From Deltaproteobacteria bacterium GWB2_55_19 (GTDB lineage Bacteria; Desulfobacterota; GWC2-55-46): a DNA stretch of 56,013 nt. The stretch spans positions 1 to 56,013 of the forward strand of contig MGPQ01000017.1 of assembly GCA_001797465.1 (NCBI GenBank), read 5' to 3'. The notes under the pieces are model-generated. The model had not been told where the DNA came from, made no database searches, and worked only from the letters and a program-made list of their open reading frames with translations. A program made the translations under genes and the position numbers. Below are positions 278 to 8,593 of this stretch, one piece after another (position 1 is the first letter of the stretch; each line of letters begins with the position of its first letter).

Positions 278-712
278 CTACGCGGCGAGCCGCACCACGA
301 GCATCCCAAGGAATCTATTCACGGCGCTCTGCCTCGGCAGGAACCCTATCACGGGTTTCCTTCTGAACCCCAGCCCCTTAAGCTCCATAAGCAGAGGCAT
401 GCTGGAGTTGTCGAACTTAAGCCCCTTCCTGAACGCGCGGACTGCAACGGACTTCTGCCCGTTAAGCAGGAATATCCTGCCGAGGTTCAGGTATATCTCC
501 GGGTTGTAGAACTCCTTTTCCGCCGCCATGAGGCAGAGTGAAATCGCCTTGTCGTAATTCCCCTCTTCGTTAGCGAGGCTCAACGCATAGTAAGACATCG
601 CCGTCGGGTGCTGTGTGAAGCATAAGTCCTCGTCAAAGACCCTGAGCGACTCCCGATACCGCCCGTCTCTGGCCAGCCCCATCCCTTTTTCGATAAGATC
701 GTTTGTCTCCAT
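278..712 (-). CDS. Small TPR-like repeat protein
   Basis: Cytoplasmic 144-residue protein with no signal peptide or membrane segment. Two to three helix pairs read like tetratricopeptide units; the clearest is around residues 70-100 (NPEIYLNLGRIFLLNGQ followed by AVRAFRKGLKFD). The last 40 residues are basic and hydrophobic and do not fit the repeat. The start at 712 is chosen because GGAGG at 721-725 sits 8 bases upstream of this ATG; the in-frame GTG at 721 overlaps that ribosome site. It is monocistronic and closed by a clear terminator. TPR proteins normally act as protein-binding scaffolds; no partner can be inferred here. Confidence 0.7.
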   Translation of the reverse strand: METNDLIEKGMGLARDGRYRESLRVFDEDLCFTQHPTAMSYYALSLANEEGNYDKAISLCLMAAEKEFYNPEIYLNLGRIFLLNGQKSVAVRAFRKGLKFDNSSMPLLMELKGLGFRRKPVIGFLPRQSAVNRFLGMLVVRLAA

Positions 713-988
713 GTACCGCACCTCCTGCCTGGTTTGCCTGGTTTTTTCGCCTGCCTTAGTGGTACGCCCTGACCGTAAAACTTAAGAAAAATCCTGCGAT
801 ACAAATACCCATGTAAGATGCCGGGAATGCTCTGGCGCAAGGCGCGGTAAAGGCGGAAACGTAGAAAAGGGCCATAAAGTAGCTATGGGACCCGGCCTTA
901 AACCCAGGTACAGTATACTTGAAGGGCCCTCTTATTTAATGTGATGGAGGTCACTGAAGCGGCAAACCGAGTGATCTGATGGGTGGGG

Positions 989-3658
989 TTACTGCAACCT
1001 TATGCCTGTCTCAAGGGCCTTGTTCTCAGGGCCGTAAACGACGTTCAAACGCCCGCCTTCATCCACCAGCAGGGTTATTTCGGTCGTATCCGGGATAGTC
1101 CCATTGAACGGGAGGGAGACCGTCTTCATGCCTTCAAGCCCCAAGCCTGCCGTCTCCCTTATATCCTGCTTGAGGAACTCTATGCCGCCTTCAATCGCCC
1201 ACCTCCTGGCGATGAGCCCCTCAGGGACCTCGAAGATCTCAAGCGTCATTTCATCCTGCTCCCCCAGCTTCCTCGCCGGCGATACAGAGAACGTCTTCTC
1301 CAAAGGGAGCGTCTCTCCCTTCTCAAGGACTATGCAGAAGGAGTGCGTCTCGTCCTTGCCCTCGGGCGCGTACCTTACCGCGTACGCCATCCCGAGGTGC
1401 CTGTCGGTTATGTCCTTGGTGGAGTAGATCGCGGCGCCGGAGGCCACGGCGGACAAGGGGCTGTGGTCGTATATCGCGTTCTCCCGCCGGAGCCTCGGGA
1501 AGAGGTCGCCTATCTTCGCCTTAAAGGACGGTATCTGCGACGAGCCCCCTGTAAGGAGGACCGCCTCTATCCTGTCCTTCTTGACGCCGACCTTCTCGGC
1601 TCTGCGGAGCACGTACGAGACGGTCCTGTCTATGAACTTGAAGAACTCGTTCCTCTCGAGGACCTCCTCAAGGTCCGCCCTCGTTACGCGCGCCACCTCG
1701 GCCCCTTCCCACTCGAACGGGACATCGTCCTTTTCCGAGAGCGCTATCTTTATCTCTTCCGCCTTGTGTATGAGCCTGTACGGGAGGTTCTCGGCCTCCA
1801 GCCCTATCATCCCGGCGAGGTGCCTCGCGAGCCATATGTCGATGTCGTGCCCGCCCAATAATTGCGCGCGCTCGGGCTTGGAGACCACGTGGACCTCTTT
1901 CATGTTAAGTCTCAAAACCATCGTATTAAGGGTCGAGCCGCCGAAGTCAATGAGCGCGACGACCTTGTCCCTCTCCTCGACGACCTGGTAGCCGACTGCC
2001 GCGGCGAGCGGCTCCTCGATGAACTCGACCTTCGTGCCCTTCATGTGGCGGCCGGCGATTGAGGACAAAGCGGCCTTGTAGTCCATGTAGCCGATCGGCA
2101 CGGTGATGTAGACGGTATCGGCGACAATCTTCGCCCCGAACGAGAACCAGCCGCCGGCGGCAGTCGCCTTCTTCAGGTGCTGTGAGAGGAGTTTCAGGAA
2201 CCTCTCCATCTGCTCCCTGCCTCTCGGGCTCCCTTCGAGGAGCATCTGCTTCATATTGGCTATCGGGTTTTCCTCGTTCACCTCGGCCCCTATCTTGTTC
2301 GTCTCGGCGCTTAAGAGCGACGGCACGACAAGCGTGCCGTCGCTGTAACGCCTCGATATCACCGGGAGCTGGAGGAACTCGGGGACGGCGCTTCTCCCCT
2401 CTGCCCTGCTCCTCATTATGACAGTGTTCGTGGCGCCCAGATCAATGGCGATGGTATCGCCCGCGCGCTCGACCTTCCTCTGTATGTAGCTCCCCTGCCC
2501 GTAGGGGTTCCGCTCCTTTACAAAAACGGGCCTTTCTATCTCCCGGCCGTGGTAGGTCTTCTCGAGCGAGGCGAGGTGGTCGACGACCTTCTTTACCGCG
2601 TCGCGGAGCCCCTTGGGCTGGACCCAGACGTGGGTATAGGGTTTCAACGCCTCTATGAAGCGGGTGTCGTTAATCTTCAGTCCGAACTTCTCAATCTCGT
2701 TGGCGAGTGTCGCCGCGTACTTTTCCCTCGAGAACCGTTTCTGCTTCGACTCCTTCATCCCGAGCTCCTCTGCCGAGAGGATGAAGTCGACGACGTCGAG
2801 CACCTCCACATCGCCCATCCACTTCTTTACGGTAAAGAAGGCGAGCGACTGCTCCATGGCGTCCTTGAGTATGGGGAAGAACTCGTGGGTCTTGGGGAGG
2901 ACCTGTATCATCTCAAGGAGGGCGTACTCCCTGGCGAACGGGTCGGTGGTGTCGGTTGCGGCCTTATAGGCGCCCTTCATCGCCTCCAGGCGGAGATCCG
3001 CGCACCCATCGACGTATTTAAGCTCCTCGGCCATGAAGAGCATAGCGTACTTCCTGTAATACGGCTCGGTCAGGCGTCCGACGGCCTCCATCGCGCGAGC
3101 GACCCCTTGCCTGTAAAGGTCGAGGAACACTCCGTCCTTGGGCATCCCCTTCATTATCCCAAGGAGCGTGTACCTCCTGTAAAAGTCCTCGTCGCTCGCC
3201 TTCGGCAGGTCCTTGGCGACGAGCTCTATGGCCCTGTCCTTGAGCCTGGGCTTGTCGGCGAGCCCGAGGGCGAGCCTCCACGCGCGCAGGCGCGAATGAA
3301 CGAACTCCGCTGTCTTAGGCATCTCGTTCGCGAGCTTCAGGAGCTCGGTCGTCCTGTAATGGTGCTCATCGAGGGCGTCGGCCGCGGTTATGGCTTCTTC
3401 CACGGCGTTTGCGTATAACGGGAGAAAGGGATCGGTCTTGGGGAGCTCCTTCATGTAATCGAGGATGGCCACCCTCTTATCCGTTGGGTCATGTATCTTT
3501 TCGAGCAGTTCAAGGGCGAGGGTGAAGAGCGCGAGGGCGTAGGCGTCCTTGGGCAACTCCCTCACCGCCTTCATAATGGCGCCCCTTAAGGACTCGTCGA
3601 GCGCCGAGCCGTCCCTTATGGCAAAGAGCGTCCGCCTTGCCTTCTCCAGATCAGTCAT
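989..3658 (-). CDS. Hsp70/DnaK-like ATPase with N-terminal helical repeats
   Basis: 889-residue soluble protein. Residues 1-300 are all-helical with a repeated E(L/M)PK motif followed by an aromatic-containing helix (LPK/MPK at about 35, 72, 113, 151, 172 and 254, often 37-41 residues apart). Residues 400-760 form an actin-like Hsp70 ATPase: phosphate-1 IDLGATNTVI (405-414), phosphate-2 IDFGGST (571-577), EEPLAAAVGY (549-558) and adenosine motif LLTGGSSQIP (702-711). The rest is a beta-rich tail resembling a short substrate-binding domain; the DnaK lid and C-terminal EEVD-like tail are missing. DnaK is about 640 residues, so the N-terminal extension is the odd part. Its ATG overlaps the stop of the radical SAM gene by four bases, implying coupled translation. 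It is the last gene of the AAA-protease operon. A client-binding or assembly role for that system is inference. Confidence 0.88.
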   Translation of the reverse strand: MTDLEKARRTLFAIRDGSALDESLRGAIMKAVRELPKDAYALALFTLALELLEKIHDPTDKRVAILDYMKELPKTDPFLPLYANAVEEAITAADALDEHHYRTTELLKLANEMPKTAEFVHSRLRAWRLALGLADKPRLKDRAIELVAKDLPKASDEDFYRRYTLLGIMKGMPKDGVFLDLYRQGVARAMEAVGRLTEPYYRKYAMLFMAEELKYVDGCADLRLEAMKGAYKAATDTTDPFAREYALLEMIQVLPKTHEFFPILKDAMEQSLAFFTVKKWMGDVEVLDVVDFILSAEELGMKESKQKRFSREKYAATLANEIEKFGLKINDTRFIEALKPYTHVWVQPKGLRDAVKKVVDHLASLEKTYHGREIERPVFVKERNPYGQGSYIQRKVERAGDTIAIDLGATNTVIMRSRAEGRSAVPEFLQLPVISRRYSDGTLVVPSLLSAETNKIGAEVNEENPIANMKQMLLEGSPRGREQMERFLKLLSQHLKKATAAGGWFSFGAKIVADTVYITVPIGYMDYKAALSSIAGRHMKGTKVEFIEEPLAAAVGYQVVEERDKVVALIDFGGSTLNTMVLRLNMKEVHVVSKPERAQLLGGHDIDIWLARHLAGMIGLEAENLPYRLIHKAEEIKIALSEKDDVPFEWEGAEVARVTRADLEEVLERNEFFKFIDRTVSYVLRRAEKVGVKKDRIEAVLLTGGSSQIPSFKAKIGDLFPRLRRENAIYDHSPLSAVASGAAIYSTKDITDRHLGMAYAVRYAPEGKDETHSFCIVLEKGETLPLEKTFSVSPARKLGEQDEMTLEIFEVPEGLIARRWAIEGGIEFLKQDIRETAGLGLEGMKTVSLPFNGTIPDTTEITLLVDEGGRLNVVYGPENKALETGIRLQ

Positions 3659-4230
3659 CTCCCTAAACCCGCCCGTAGAGGCGCCCTGCTGAACCCGGTC
3701 TCTACGACCGCGCCGTCCGCCTTTATTATCACCTCTACCTTGCCTTCCATGATGAAGTCTTCTTCTGTATACCTGTTGGTGAGAAAATGGAGCCTCTGGT
3801 TGCTTGAGCCCCTCGCAAGGAGCGTCGTCTCTTTCTCTTGTTCTATAAACGGGCCGTCGACGAGTACGTCTATGTATATCAGGGCCTCGCGCGCGGCCTC
3901 ATCCTTGTTCAACTCCTCTATCGTGAAACCCGTGTATACGACGGTTGAAAGGGCGCGCTCCCTCGCACCCTTAAGGAGCAGAGAGAGCCCCTCCTTCTGG
4001 GCGAACGGCTCTCCGCCGCTTACGGTTATCCCCTCTGCCTGCCCCTTCGGGAGCCGCTTGAATATCTCGTCGACCAAGAGCGCCTCCCTTTCCCCGAAGG
4101 AATGCGTCTCCGGGTTGAAGCAACCCGGGCAGGCGCGTCCGCACCCCTGGAAAAAGACGACGAGGCGCGCCCCCGGCCCGTTCACGCGGGACGAGGGGAT
4201 GACGGCGTGTATGTTCAACTTTGTATTCAT
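3655..4230 (-). CDS. Radical SAM activase-like protein (4Fe-4S, NrdG/PflA type)
   Basis: 191-residue cytoplasmic protein. The CX3CX2C motif that binds the SAM-coordinating 4Fe-4S cluster is at C30, C34 and C37, preceded by the NGPG-RLVVFFQGC context typical of anaerobic ribonucleotide reductase and pyruvate formate-lyase activases. The SGGEPF motif (71-76) binds the SAM amino group. The family reduces SAM to a 5'-deoxyadenosyl radical, usually to install a glycyl radical on a partner enzyme. No glycyl radical enzyme is encoded nearby; instead the gene is locked between DUF2997 and the Hsp70-like gene, overlapping the latter by 4 bp. No strong Shine-Dalgarno precedes the ATG, consistent with translation from the upstream reading frame. 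The real substrate is unknown. Confidence 0.85.
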   Translation of the reverse strand: MNTKLNIHAVIPSSRVNGPGARLVVFFQGCGRACPGCFNPETHSFGEREALLVDEIFKRLPKGQAEGITVSGGEPFAQKEGLSLLLKGARERALSTVVYTGFTIEELNKDEAAREALIYIDVLVDGPFIEQEKETTLLARGSSNQRLHFLTNRYTEEDFIMEGKVEVIIKADGAVVETGFSRAPLRAGLGR

Positions 4231-4276: not shown

Positions 4277-4459
4277 TCAGTCGGAATCTACCTTGAGCTT
4301 TATCTCCCTCTCGAAGACCGCGTCCTTTTCGGTAAAACTCTCTATCTCGCCAAGCACCTTTGTCAGGTGGTCGGCTACGTCCTTGCAGTCCTTATAGATG
4401 GTCGAATCTATCTCGACCCTGCCGTCGGCCGTTATCCTTATCTTTATCTGCCTGTCCAT
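4277..4459 (-). CDS. DUF2997 family small protein
   Basis: 60-residue acidic/basic protein beginning with a beta-strand pattern (QIKIRITADGRVEID) followed by a conserved-looking helix with a single Cys-Lys-Asp turn. The length and the opening I-x-I-x-DGRVE pattern match DUF2997, a family of unknown function. AGGAG lies 7 bases upstream of the ATG. It follows the DUF1257 gene by 23 bp and precedes the radical SAM gene by 46 bp on the same strand. From memory DUF2997 and DUF1257 genes are often neighbours in cyanobacteria; I cannot confirm this here. Function unknown. Confidence 0.75.
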   Translation of the reverse strand: MDRQIKIRITADGRVEIDSTIYKDCKDVADHLTKVLGEIESFTEKDAVFEREIKLKVDSD

Positions 4460-4482: not shown

Positions 4483-4821
4483 TCAACCCTTGAGGAGTAT
4501 ATGTATTTCCCCGGAGGTCTCGGTCTCCTTCGATATCTCGAAATCGAGCGGGAGGTTGTCCTTTATCGACTCGTAGGCGTATATCTGCTTAAGCCTGTCG
4601 GAGAACCTGTTCACGACCCTGTTGTCGCCGCCGACCTGGTAGTTGCCGGATTTTTCCATCGACAGGGTGATCATGTCGCCGTCCCTGTCGACCTCTATCT
4701 CTTCTTTCCTGTCGTTCTTGACGAAGTTCGTTATCTCGCCCCGCTTTTTGAGCTCTTCGAGCGCCGCGATCACGTACTTCTTGCTGGACAACTGCGTCTT
4801 TATGACCGTATAGAAGGACAT
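4483..4821 (-). CDS. DUF1257 (Ycf35-like) protein
   Basis: 112-residue soluble protein. The opening MSFYTVIKTQLSSKKYVIAA, the middle GNYQVGGDNRVVNRF segment and the YAYESIKDNLPL segment fit DUF1257, the family that includes plastid/cyanobacterial Ycf35 (function unknown). The start at 4821 is chosen because AAGGAGG lies 5 bases upstream; an upstream in-frame start at 4893 would add 24 residues unlike the family. It lies 95 bp after the AAA-protease gene and 23 bp before the DUF2997 gene. Its presence with a Ycf46-like N-terminal region in the AAA protein suggests these plastid-type families form one functional unit (inference). Confidence 0.8.
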   Translation of the reverse strand: MSFYTVIKTQLSSKKYVIAALEELKKRGEITNFVKNDRKEEIEVDRDGDMITLSMEKSGNYQVGGDNRVVNRFSDRLKQIYAYESIKDNLPLDFEISKETETSGEIHILLKG

Positions 4822-4916: not shown

Positions 4917-7052
4917 TTACTCGACCGGGTTTTCCTTGAAAAACTTCATGATTGAGTCGCCGTTCATTAACACGTCCTTGGAGAGCCTCTCCACGAAGGA
5001 CATGAGGACGTCCTTGTTCCTCGATATTATCCCGGCCGAGACCTCCTTGGCGGAGTCCAGTATCCTCTGTATGTCGTCGAGCACCTCGCTCCCGGATGTG
5101 AGGGCGAAGTCCTGGAGTACGATAAGCGACTTGTTCCTCATTATCTCTCCGAAGCCGTACTCGACGACCATCTTCCGGGCGATGTTCGTCGCCTGTATGA
5201 GGTCGTGGGACGCCCCGACGGTCTTGGAGTCGCCGCCTATGAGCTCTTCCTCGGCGACCATGCCGCCGATTATCACGCCTATCTCCTTCTCGAGGTCCTT
5301 CTTGGTAAAGGTGGTGCGAAGCGCCTCGTCAAGGGGTATGTAGGCGCTGAAGTTCTTGTAGTTGTCTATCGAGACGAAGGCCGGGGTCTTGTTGAAGTGC
5401 AGCTTCATGAGGATGCAGTGGCCCGCCTCGTGTATGGCGATGTTCCTCTTCTCGTGATCGGTCAGGGTCTCGGCCCTCTGGAGGAAAAGGGACTTCGACG
5501 CCGGGCGCGCCCGCTGGTGGCTCCATGTGCGGAGCTCCTCTATCTCCTCTTTCTTCAAGACCGAAAGGGGCGTTATGTGCCTTATGGCGGAAAGCAACGC
5601 CTCCTGCGTGACGTCAAGGGCCAGCAACCCGTCTATCATATCCTCGACCTCCTTGGAGGACTCCCCCCCGTGGAGGTTGTTGAAGGTCGTCACTACGGCG
5701 TCCTTTACCGCCTGCTCGATCTCGGCGCCGGTGAAGCCCTGGCTGTTCTGCGCGAGTTCGCGCAGATTCAGCCTGTTCATGTTCTGGATGCGCCTCTCGA
5801 GGTGGATCCTGTATATCTCCTCCCGCTCCTCCTGGCTCGGTAGGTCCACGAAGAAGACCTCGTCGTACCGGCCCTTTCTCCAGAGCTCCGGGGGGAGGTT
5901 CTTGGGCTCGTTCGCGGTGGAAATCACGAAGACCGGGTTCTCCTTCTCCTGCAACCATGTTATGAAGGTGCCGAAGACCCTCATTTGCGTGCCGGAGTCG
6001 CCCTGGTAGCCGCCGATGCCGCCGAAGGCCTTGTCTATCTCGTCTATCCAGAGTATGCAGGGGCTCACAGCCTCGGCAAGCTGTATGGACCTTCTTATGT
6101 TCTTCTCGGACTCTCCGACCGTGGAGCCGAAGAGGCGGCCCACGTCGAGCCTCAAGAGCGGCAGGTTCCAGATGCCGGCGAGCGCCTTGCAGCATAAGCT
6201 TTTGCCGGAGCCGGGGACGCCTATCAAAAGGAGCCCCTTGGGCACGTCGAGCCCGAGTGTCGCTATCTTGTCCTTGGAGAGCCTGAATACGTGCTCCCTC
6301 TCGACGAACCACTTCTTTATTTCAGACAGGCCGCCGATGTTCTCTATCGTCTCCCTGTGCGGGTAGTAGTCGAGTATCCTCTGCTTTTTTATTATCTGCT
6401 GTTTCTCGTCCTGTATGTAGGAGATGCAGTCTTCGTTAAGGAAGCCGTTATTAAGGCTTATAGCCTTCCTTATGACCCTCCTCACGTTATCCATCGAAAG
6501 GCCCTGGAGGGACTTATACAGTATGGAGCGGGTCGAGGCGTGCCATTGCTCGGGGATAAGGTGGCCGTAGGTCGTGGAGACCATCTCGGCTATCTCGTCG
6601 TAGTCCGGTAGCGATAGTTCAAGGACGACCATGTCCTCTTCGAGCTCCGGCGGTATCTCGCTTAAGGTCGGGGAGAGTATGCAGACGGTGTTCTGCGTGT
6701 GACGCTCGTCCATTATGGACGGCAAGTCCCTGAACTTTCTAAGGAATTCGTGGGAGTTGAAGTAGCTGGCTATGTCTTTGAGGAGGAATATGTTGTTGGT
6801 GTTCTCGCCCTTTGTTATCTTCTCTTCGATGGTGGTAAGGATCTTTTCCTTCCCCATCTGCTCCCGTTTCTTTTTCTCGCCGCCGTAGAGACCCCTCGAC
6901 ACGGACCAAGACCAGTATGTGGATTTCATCGATTCCGCGAGGTTCTCGACTATCCGCTCGACCCTTCTTTCCTCGAAGGAGACGAGCCAGAGGATCGGGT
7001 ACCTCGCCTCGATATGTATCCTTATTTCGTTCTCAAAGTCTTTGGTCTTCAT
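4917..7052 (-). CDS. Soluble AAA+ ATPase fused to FtsH-type (M41) zinc protease
   Basis: 711 residues with no transmembrane segment. Residues 1-230 resemble the N-terminal region of Ycf46-type AAA proteins. Residues 235-460 are the AAA module: Walker A GVPGSGKS (278-285), Walker B ILWIDEID (333-340), and RKGRYD (392-397) carrying the probable arginine finger. Residues 525-711 are peptidase M41-like: HEAGH (541-545) gives two zinc ligands and the catalytic Glu, and GASHD ending at D617 matches the third ligand of FtsH (GASND). All catalytic residues therefore look intact. FtsH is normally anchored by two N-terminal membrane helices; here they are replaced by the Ycf46-like region, so the protease should be cytosolic. 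It is the first gene of the operon, with an extended -10 promoter just upstream and AAGGG 6 bases before the ATG. ATP-driven proteolysis or unfolding is inferred; the substrate is unknown. Confidence 0.9.
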   Translation of the reverse strand: MKTKDFENEIRIHIEARYPILWLVSFEERRVERIVENLAESMKSTYWSWSVSRGLYGGEKKKREQMGKEKILTTIEEKITKGENTNNIFLLKDIASYFNSHEFLRKFRDLPSIMDERHTQNTVCILSPTLSEIPPELEEDMVVLELSLPDYDEIAEMVSTTYGHLIPEQWHASTRSILYKSLQGLSMDNVRRVIRKAISLNNGFLNEDCISYIQDEKQQIIKKQRILDYYPHRETIENIGGLSEIKKWFVEREHVFRLSKDKIATLGLDVPKGLLLIGVPGSGKSLCCKALAGIWNLPLLRLDVGRLFGSTVGESEKNIRRSIQLAEAVSPCILWIDEIDKAFGGIGGYQGDSGTQMRVFGTFITWLQEKENPVFVISTANEPKNLPPELWRKGRYDEVFFVDLPSQEEREEIYRIHLERRIQNMNRLNLRELAQNSQGFTGAEIEQAVKDAVVTTFNNLHGGESSKEVEDMIDGLLALDVTQEALLSAIRHITPLSVLKKEEIEELRTWSHQRARPASKSLFLQRAETLTDHEKRNIAIHEAGHCILMKLHFNKTPAFVSIDNYKNFSAYIPLDEALRTTFTKKDLEKEIGVIIGGMVAEEELIGGDSKTVGASHDLIQATNIARKMVVEYGFGEIMRNKSLIVLQDFALTSGSEVLDDIQRILDSAKEVSAGIISRNKDVLMSFVERLSKDVLMNGDSIMKFFKENPVE

Positions 7053-8110: not shown

Positions 8111-8593
8111 ATGAAATCAGGACCTATAATTATTGAAGTCCCTGTTGCCAAAATAAAAATAAGTCCTTTGGGATTCCACCATTATGGTTCGGAGTTTCTA
8201 AGGACTGGAAGATCATTCAACAAGGCGAAAGAAGGTTTTTCACCGGTCCCGTATTATCTTTACTCAAGAGCTATTGAATTGTTGCTTAAGGCATTCTTAT
8301 TATCAAAAGGAATTTCTAAAGAAGAATTGAAAAAGAAAAAAACTTTTGGCCATGACCTGATGAAAGCTCTTAATAAAGCCAGGCTATTAGGCATTGACGA
8401 TATTGTAGAAATTACTCTTGAAGAGGAAAAGGAAGTTGAAAAAACAAATGCCTATTATGCAAAAAAAGAGTTCGAATACTTCGAAATTTTAAATACAGTA
8501 AATGGATATCCTGGTTTACCTGATTTGGAGGTTTTAAATGAACTTGCATCCAAATTAGCCGAAAAACTTAAACAAGTTTGTTTAAATGCTTAG
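8111..8593 (+). CDS. HEPN-like small protein, AT-rich
   Basis: 160 residues, mostly helical. The region SRAIELLLKAFLL (residues 52-64), a Lys-rich loop and FGHDLMKALNKA (about 79-90) follow the layout of HEPN-type proteins, where an Arg/His pair on the second long helix cuts RNA. A clean RX4-6H motif is not seen, so catalysis is doubtful. GGAGG lies 5 bases before the ATG. The gene is strikingly AT-rich (AAA, GAA and TTA codons dominate) compared with its GC-rich neighbours, a sign of recent acquisition. No MNT nucleotidyltransferase partner is adjacent. Toxin-antitoxin or defence association is possible but unproven. Confidence 0.6.
   Translation: MKSGPIIIEVPVAKIKISPLGFHHYGSEFLRTGRSFNKAKEGFSPVPYYLYSRAIELLLKAFLLSKGISKEELKKKKTFGHDLMKALNKARLLGIDDIVEITLEEEKEVEKTNAYYAKKEFEYFEILNTVNGYPGLPDLEVLNELASKLAEKLKQVCLNA

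Follow-up and report, generated by a model that had tools for sequence, protein, structure and literature searches.

Fusion of a Ycf46-type tandem AAA protein with an M41 peptidase in uncultured bacteria

The protein described here has its closest relatives in four known systems. In FtsH (PF01434 plus AAA) an M41 peptidase domain with an HExxH motif and a distal Asp follows directly on an AAA module, and the FVG motif of the pore is the proposed site of substrate entry (PMC9020784). The Ycf2-FtsHi motor of plastids is membrane-bound, and the protease site of Ycf2 was gradually lost in evolution (PMC9020784). Cdc48, p97 and VAT have tandem AAA modules and a separate proteasome, and in yeast Cdc48 the lack of an aromatic residue in the D1 ring prevents proteins from being driven through into degradation (PMC5511170). 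Red algal plastid genes include both Ycf46 and Ycf35 (PMC5940233), and in Synechocystis the genes for a DUF2997 protein, Ycf35 (DUF1257) and ferredoxin 7 are clustered (PMC4284462).

The window analysed is the first 56,013 nucleotides of contig MGPQ01000017.1 from Deltaproteobacteria bacterium GWB2_55_19. An uninterrupted open reading frame on its minus strand (4917..7052; ATG start, no internal stops) encodes a 711-residue protein in which a Ycf46-type tandem AAA protein is fused to an M41 peptidase domain. Profile alignment (hhalign) and fold matching place a predicted degenerate, P-loop-less AAA module corresponding to the Ycf46 N-domain at residues 1-232 (6357..7052, minus strand), and these methods together with Pfam place a catalytic AAA module with its lid and the Ycf46 C-terminal tail at residues 233-522 (5487..6356, minus strand). 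The M41 domain occupies residues 523-711 (4920..5486, minus strand; Pfam and fold match).

The protein resembles Ycf46 and its standalone bacterial and phage homologues (phrog_8638) in matching the whole family, and shares their DUF1257 (Ycf35) and DUF2997 neighbours, but it differs in its additional C-terminal M41 domain and in a fixed Thr in pore loop 1. With FtsH it shares the M41 domain and the AAA module directly upstream; unlike FtsH it has no membrane helices or periplasmic domain, and it has an additional degenerate AAA module, a non-aromatic pore and an AAA core of the Ycf46 clade. It has the tandem AAA arrangement of Cdc48/p97/VAT in the predicted model, although its first AAA module has no P-loop, the p97 N-domain is absent and the peptidase is covalently attached. 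The plastid FtsH relatives of the Ycf2-FtsHi motor are among its fold matches, but the protein is predicted to be soluble and its zinc site is intact. The anti-phage ATPase IetA was also considered and rejected, as the match covers the generic AAA stretch alone (102.6 bits, where the cut-off is 510). No published account of a Ycf46-M41 fusion was found in the titles and abstracts of literature on Ycf46, DUF1257/DUF2997, anchorless M41 proteins and tandem AAA-M41 proteins. The parts are all known; the arrangement and its lineage-specific fusion are new as far as this literature shows.

Peptidase domain, catalytic AAA module and pore loop

The zinc motif HEAGH lies at residues 541-545 (5418..5432, minus strand) and the third zinc ligand is D617 (5202..5204, minus strand), inside the sequence GASHDL. 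Both were reported as intact in the original prediction, which is borne out, as HExxH and D617 are kept in 44/44 full-length homologues and the catalytic residues are invariant among homologues down to 70% identity. The domain itself is divergent. Pfam Peptidase_M41 is matched at residues 529-700 with 72 bits (E 9.4e-20), and conservation is lowest here among the domains, with a mean pairwise identity of 66% compared with 90% for the AAA core. In an AlphaFold model the fold matches the FtsH protease domain 2di4 (Z 19.2, rmsd 2.6 over 165 residues).

The second AAA module is matched by Pfam AAA at residues 274-403 (E 2.2e-30) and has the complete Walker motifs previously claimed for it, Walker A GVPGSGKS at residues 278-285 (6198..6221, minus strand) and Walker B LWIDEID at residues 334-340 (6033..6053, minus strand). 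The arginine fingers R392 and R395 (5868..5879, minus strand) are invariant in fused proteins, viral Ycf46 and FtsH; Walker A and B, sensor 1 and the two fingers are kept throughout the 44 aligned full-length members. Pore loop 1 reads FGSTVG (residues 308-313; 6114..6131, minus strand), with T311 in place of the pore Phe of FtsH, an aromatic that FtsH-type proteases require to thread their substrates. Thr occupied this site in 33/33 fused proteins and Phe in 11/11 FtsH proteins, and the Thr is invariant across 44 fused proteins; the motif is TVG in all fused proteins and FVG both in the 11 FtsH compared and in 16 FtsH of relatives.

This pore bears on what the protein does with its substrates. 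It is possible, though rather unlikely, that the protein is a Ycf46-type remodelling ATPase whose M41 domain serves for limited processing or as a structural ring and not as a processive protease, its non-aromatic pore gripping the substrate weakly, as proposed for the D1 ring of Cdc48. The Thr in all fused proteins, at a site where viral Ycf46 varies (mostly L, I, Y or F) and all FtsH have Phe, agrees with such a role, as does yeast Cdc48, where absence of the D1 aromatic prevented forced degradation (PMC5511170). Mainly because the pore aromatic is replaced by an invariant Thr, we do not claim that the protein is a vigorously processive protease. Every member nevertheless retains both zinc histidines, the catalytic Glu and D617, for which a domain with a solely structural function would have no use, and a purely structural M41 ring is disfavoured. 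Proteolytic activity of the fused protein is plausible from its sequence.

The Ycf46-type front part

The original prediction described an FtsH-type protease whose two N-terminal membrane helices had been replaced by about 230 residues of Ycf46-like sequence. The helices are indeed missing. A 19-residue hydropathy scan found no transmembrane helix, hidden or otherwise, in the 711-residue protein, where the highest mean was 1.33; the two helices of the FtsH encoded by the same genome, used as the control, reach 2.45 and 2.34. That ordinary membrane FtsH (622 residues) is encoded on another contig, so the fused protein is an additional protein and not the housekeeping FtsH. For residues 1-232, hhalign gave no alignment with the N-termini of FtsH (probability 0.2%) but a clear one with the N-domains of standalone Ycf46-type proteins (E 6e-35), as had been proposed. 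The extent of the Ycf46-like part was underestimated, however, since the alignment to standalone proteins of about 500 residues covers their whole length and takes in residues 4-521 (E 6e-132); we take this family to be Ycf46. The boundary at residue 230 is merely the start of the AAA core.

Similarity to the standalone proteins ends at about residue 520, where the protease begins, and their C-terminal tail (e.g. PISKLMSERIERLREWAADRTRKAN in locus L062) corresponds to TPLSVLKKEEIEELRTWSHQRARPAS of the focal protein, directly before M41. PHROGs independently gave a single family, phrog_8638, spanning residues 4-534 (E 3e-128). Several of the standalone genes adjoin clear DUF1257 (PF06868) and DUF2997 (PF11211) genes. 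Homologues on cyanobacterial plasmids are 40-46% identical to the standalone protein over 97-98% and carry only the annotation 'AAA family ATPase'. On the full-length profile alignment, the PHROG match and the neighbours of the standalone genes, residues 1-522 are assigned, from sequence comparison, as a complete Ycf46-type protein.

The AAA tree groups the fused proteins with Ycf46 and places FtsH in a separate clade (support 1.0). This weighs heavily against the implication of the original prediction, now very unlikely, that the protein is an FtsH paralogue that lost its anchor and recruited the Ycf46 N-domain alone. Such an origin would account for the M41 domain, for an AAA-M41 order like that of FtsH, and for NCBIfam FtsH_fam being the top single NCBIfam match of the protein. 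That match scores 173.4 bits against a cut-off of 600, however, and the alignment to standalone Ycf46 runs on to about residue 521 with the C-terminal tail included. As the anchor, the pore motif and the FtsH_fam cut-off all fail, we class the protein as a Ycf46-family member with an M41 extension and not as FtsH. What stands of the earlier description is the intact M41 zinc site, the missing anchor and the Ycf46-like front; its domain split and the view of an FtsH with a swapped anchor do not. Because residues 4-521 match whole standalone proteins and the AAA core falls on the Ycf46 side, a Ycf46 protein with an acquired M41 domain is the better reading of the sequence, the peptidase domain being the piece added at the C-terminus.

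Structure prediction supports a tandem arrangement. A first AlphaFold model from 44 close homologues predicted residues 1-225 well and the AAA core poorly (pLDDT ~30), and a second, from a mixed alignment including FtsH and viral Ycf46 rows, reached pLDDT 82.9 and pTM 0.66. In the first model residues 2-230 match the AAA modules of PAN, Vps4 and p97 D1 (VIA-align, Z ~15), with Z 15.3 and rmsd 3.9 over 206 residues for PAN-Rpt5C and Z 15.2 and rmsd 3.4 over 211 for Vps4. In the second, residues 2-515 superpose on D1-D2 of p97/Cdc48 (Z 26-28, mostly 445-487 residues, rmsd 4.6-9.6), and in a predicted model residues 233-522 match p97 D2 (Z 27.7, rmsd 2.6 over 272). The P-loop GxxxxGK[ST] is absent from the first module in all 44 fused and 18 standalone homologues. 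At its would-be site the homologue alignment has a conserved EERR (residues 27-30; 6963..6974, minus strand), present as EER[RK] in 44/44 fused proteins and as EExR in 17/18 cellular Ycf46; in viral Ycf46 both E27 and E28 are kept in 27/28 and R30 in 25/28. D93, at the pseudo-active site (6774-6776), is invariant and is kept in viral Ycf46 too. Given the AAA fold matches and the missing P-loop, the predicted models show residues 1 to about 230 as a degenerate AAA module and the overall layout as dead AAA, live AAA and M41. The conserved EE-x-R and D93 of the dead module may serve to bind something other than nucleotide.

Distribution of the fusion and its operon

By match-table count, full-length homologues occur in 26/30 genomes of the same family, the remaining four being 61-89% complete; on this distribution the fusion is not a chance event. 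Beyond the family, homologues of nearly constant length are found in part of the order and class. Among 297 genomes of the phylum, full-length fusions were present in two families beyond the first survey (f53 and f57), and elsewhere the protein is a standalone one of about 500 residues. A scan of GTDB contigs with M41 gave about 50 fused loci with 57-100% identity in that domain, below which identity drops to 44% or less and the matches are ordinary FtsH; the scan used two clade-specific peptide patterns and could miss remote fusions in other phyla. None of these loci comes from a cultured organism; most are from metagenome-assembled genomes, and the labels are Deltaproteobacteria, Nitrospirae and the like. 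In about 50 uncultured 'Deltaproteobacteria' and 'Nitrospirae' genomes the fusion retains 70-99% identity. No M41 domain fused to Ycf46 was found in viral contigs, and no separate M41 gene was found adjoining a standalone Ycf46 gene. Compared genome by genome with the focal genome, the fused proteins are 70-90% identical and FtsH 75-90%; two FtsH pairs at about 50% are probably FtsH paralogues. The fused protein is thus about as slow to diverge as the FtsH of the same genomes and is under strong constraint. In one genome (G028; locus L029, 8014-8199) the fused gene seems frameshifted near residues 22-67, perhaps through an assembly error.

An assembly or gene-fusion artefact, which might be suspected since every member comes from a metagenome-assembled or otherwise uncultured genome, can be set aside given the identical uninterrupted architecture of 707-712 residues at 44 loci, in independent assemblies and in the same operon.

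The fused gene heads the operon in every case. Downstream on the minus strand are genes for a DUF1257 (Ycf35)-type protein of 112 residues (4483..4821; hhalign E 1e-8 to the DUF1257 neighbours, phrog_20456 1.2e-7), a DUF2997-type protein of 60 residues (4277..4459), a NrdG-like radical-SAM protein with a CxxxCxxC motif (3655..4230; Fer4_12 1.2e-34, NrdG 4.1e-35) and an Hsp70-like chaperone of 889 residues (989..3658; HSP70 2.7e-21). The DUF2997 assignment is weak and draws on Pfam (E 0.0036, below the cut-off), hhalign (E 1.6e-4, probability 51%) and operon position. The genes are separated by 95, 23 and 46 bases, except for the final pair, which overlaps by 4. This five-gene order is unchanged across the surveyed families wherever contigs are long enough, and likewise in the two extra families; as its gene is found in the same chaperone and radical-enzyme operon every time, we regard the fusion as a real new arrangement of known parts. 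A TPR protein gene (278..721, minus strand) is linked in most same-family loci. A 160-residue open reading frame at 8111-8593, absent from the neighbouring loci of the relatives compared, has no Pfam match and is HEPN-like by eye only (RAIELLLKAFL motif).

Standalone Ycf46 loci, including those of phages, have the same partners without M41. The Hsp70-like part of the chaperone has homologues in the Hsp70-like genes found close to standalone Ycf46 (hhalign E 4e-22). The chaperone's N-terminal extension of about 390 residues has no Pfam match, and its equivalence to the separate HEAT protein beside other Ycf46 genes is not supported, as no similarity was detected (hhalign probability 0.3%). Ycf46-type ATPases are also carried by viral contigs, and 327 IMG/VR stretches encode relatives; contigs with such ATPases include L159 (3989-7903), L158, L176, L180-L185, L187, L189, L192 and L210, and in several of them DUF2997, NrdG-like radical-SAM and DUF1257 genes form one strand-matched cluster. 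The radical-SAM gene appears to belong regularly to the Ycf46 module.

The radical-SAM protein scores 121 bits against the NrdG model, just under the cut-off of 126.1, and CxxxCxxC is kept in 29/29. An ordinary NrdG serving a class III ribonucleotide reductase was rejected, as neither NrdD nor a glycyl-radical domain (PF13597, PF01228) is encoded by the genome, which is 100% complete; the substrate therefore lies elsewhere, plausibly within the operon. No class III ribonucleotide reductase was recognised by eye among the phage neighbours of Ycf46 inspected, and nrdD was not evident in the single viral contig gone through in full.

Proposed role of the fused protein

We favour, with reasonable though not high confidence, a soluble AAA protease made of a complete Ycf46-type protein, with one degenerate and one active AAA module, and a C-terminal M41 domain, the other operon proteins being its helpers. 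Judged from sequence, it is most likely an ATP-dependent protease with restricted, adaptor-delivered substrates; the conserved operon, with its small proteins and Hsp70-like chaperone, fits the 'targeted' protease first envisaged. By analogy with p97/Cdc48 and FtsH, the protein would form a hexamer of three layers, with a non-hydrolysing AAA ring that would dock adaptors, an ATP-hydrolysing AAA ring, and a peptidase ring that would cut at the zinc site. The DUF1257 and DUF2997 small proteins and the Hsp70-like chaperone are likely adaptors or feeders, and the NrdG-like protein probably makes or senses a modified or iron-sulfur client. Clients would be threaded or partly processed and then cut by the zinc site. 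An extended version, which we think improbable, has the operon as an autonomous bacterial equivalent of the Cdc48-proteasome route, in which the radical-SAM, DUF1257 and DUF2997 proteins would mark or convert a client, the Hsp70-like protein would deliver it, and one polypeptide would unfold and cleave it.

Ycf46, Ycf35 (DUF1257) and DUF2997, which occur in plastids, cyanobacteria, other bacteria and phages, have no clear biochemical role. The fusion of Ycf46 to a protease whose chemistry is known strongly hints that Ycf46 acts on a protein. An M41 peptidase that is off the membrane and has a tandem AAA motor also helps to separate the contributions of the anchor, the pore aromatic and the second AAA ring. 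The fusion offers a route to the substrate of Ycf46, as clients can be captured with the catalytically dead variant E542Q.
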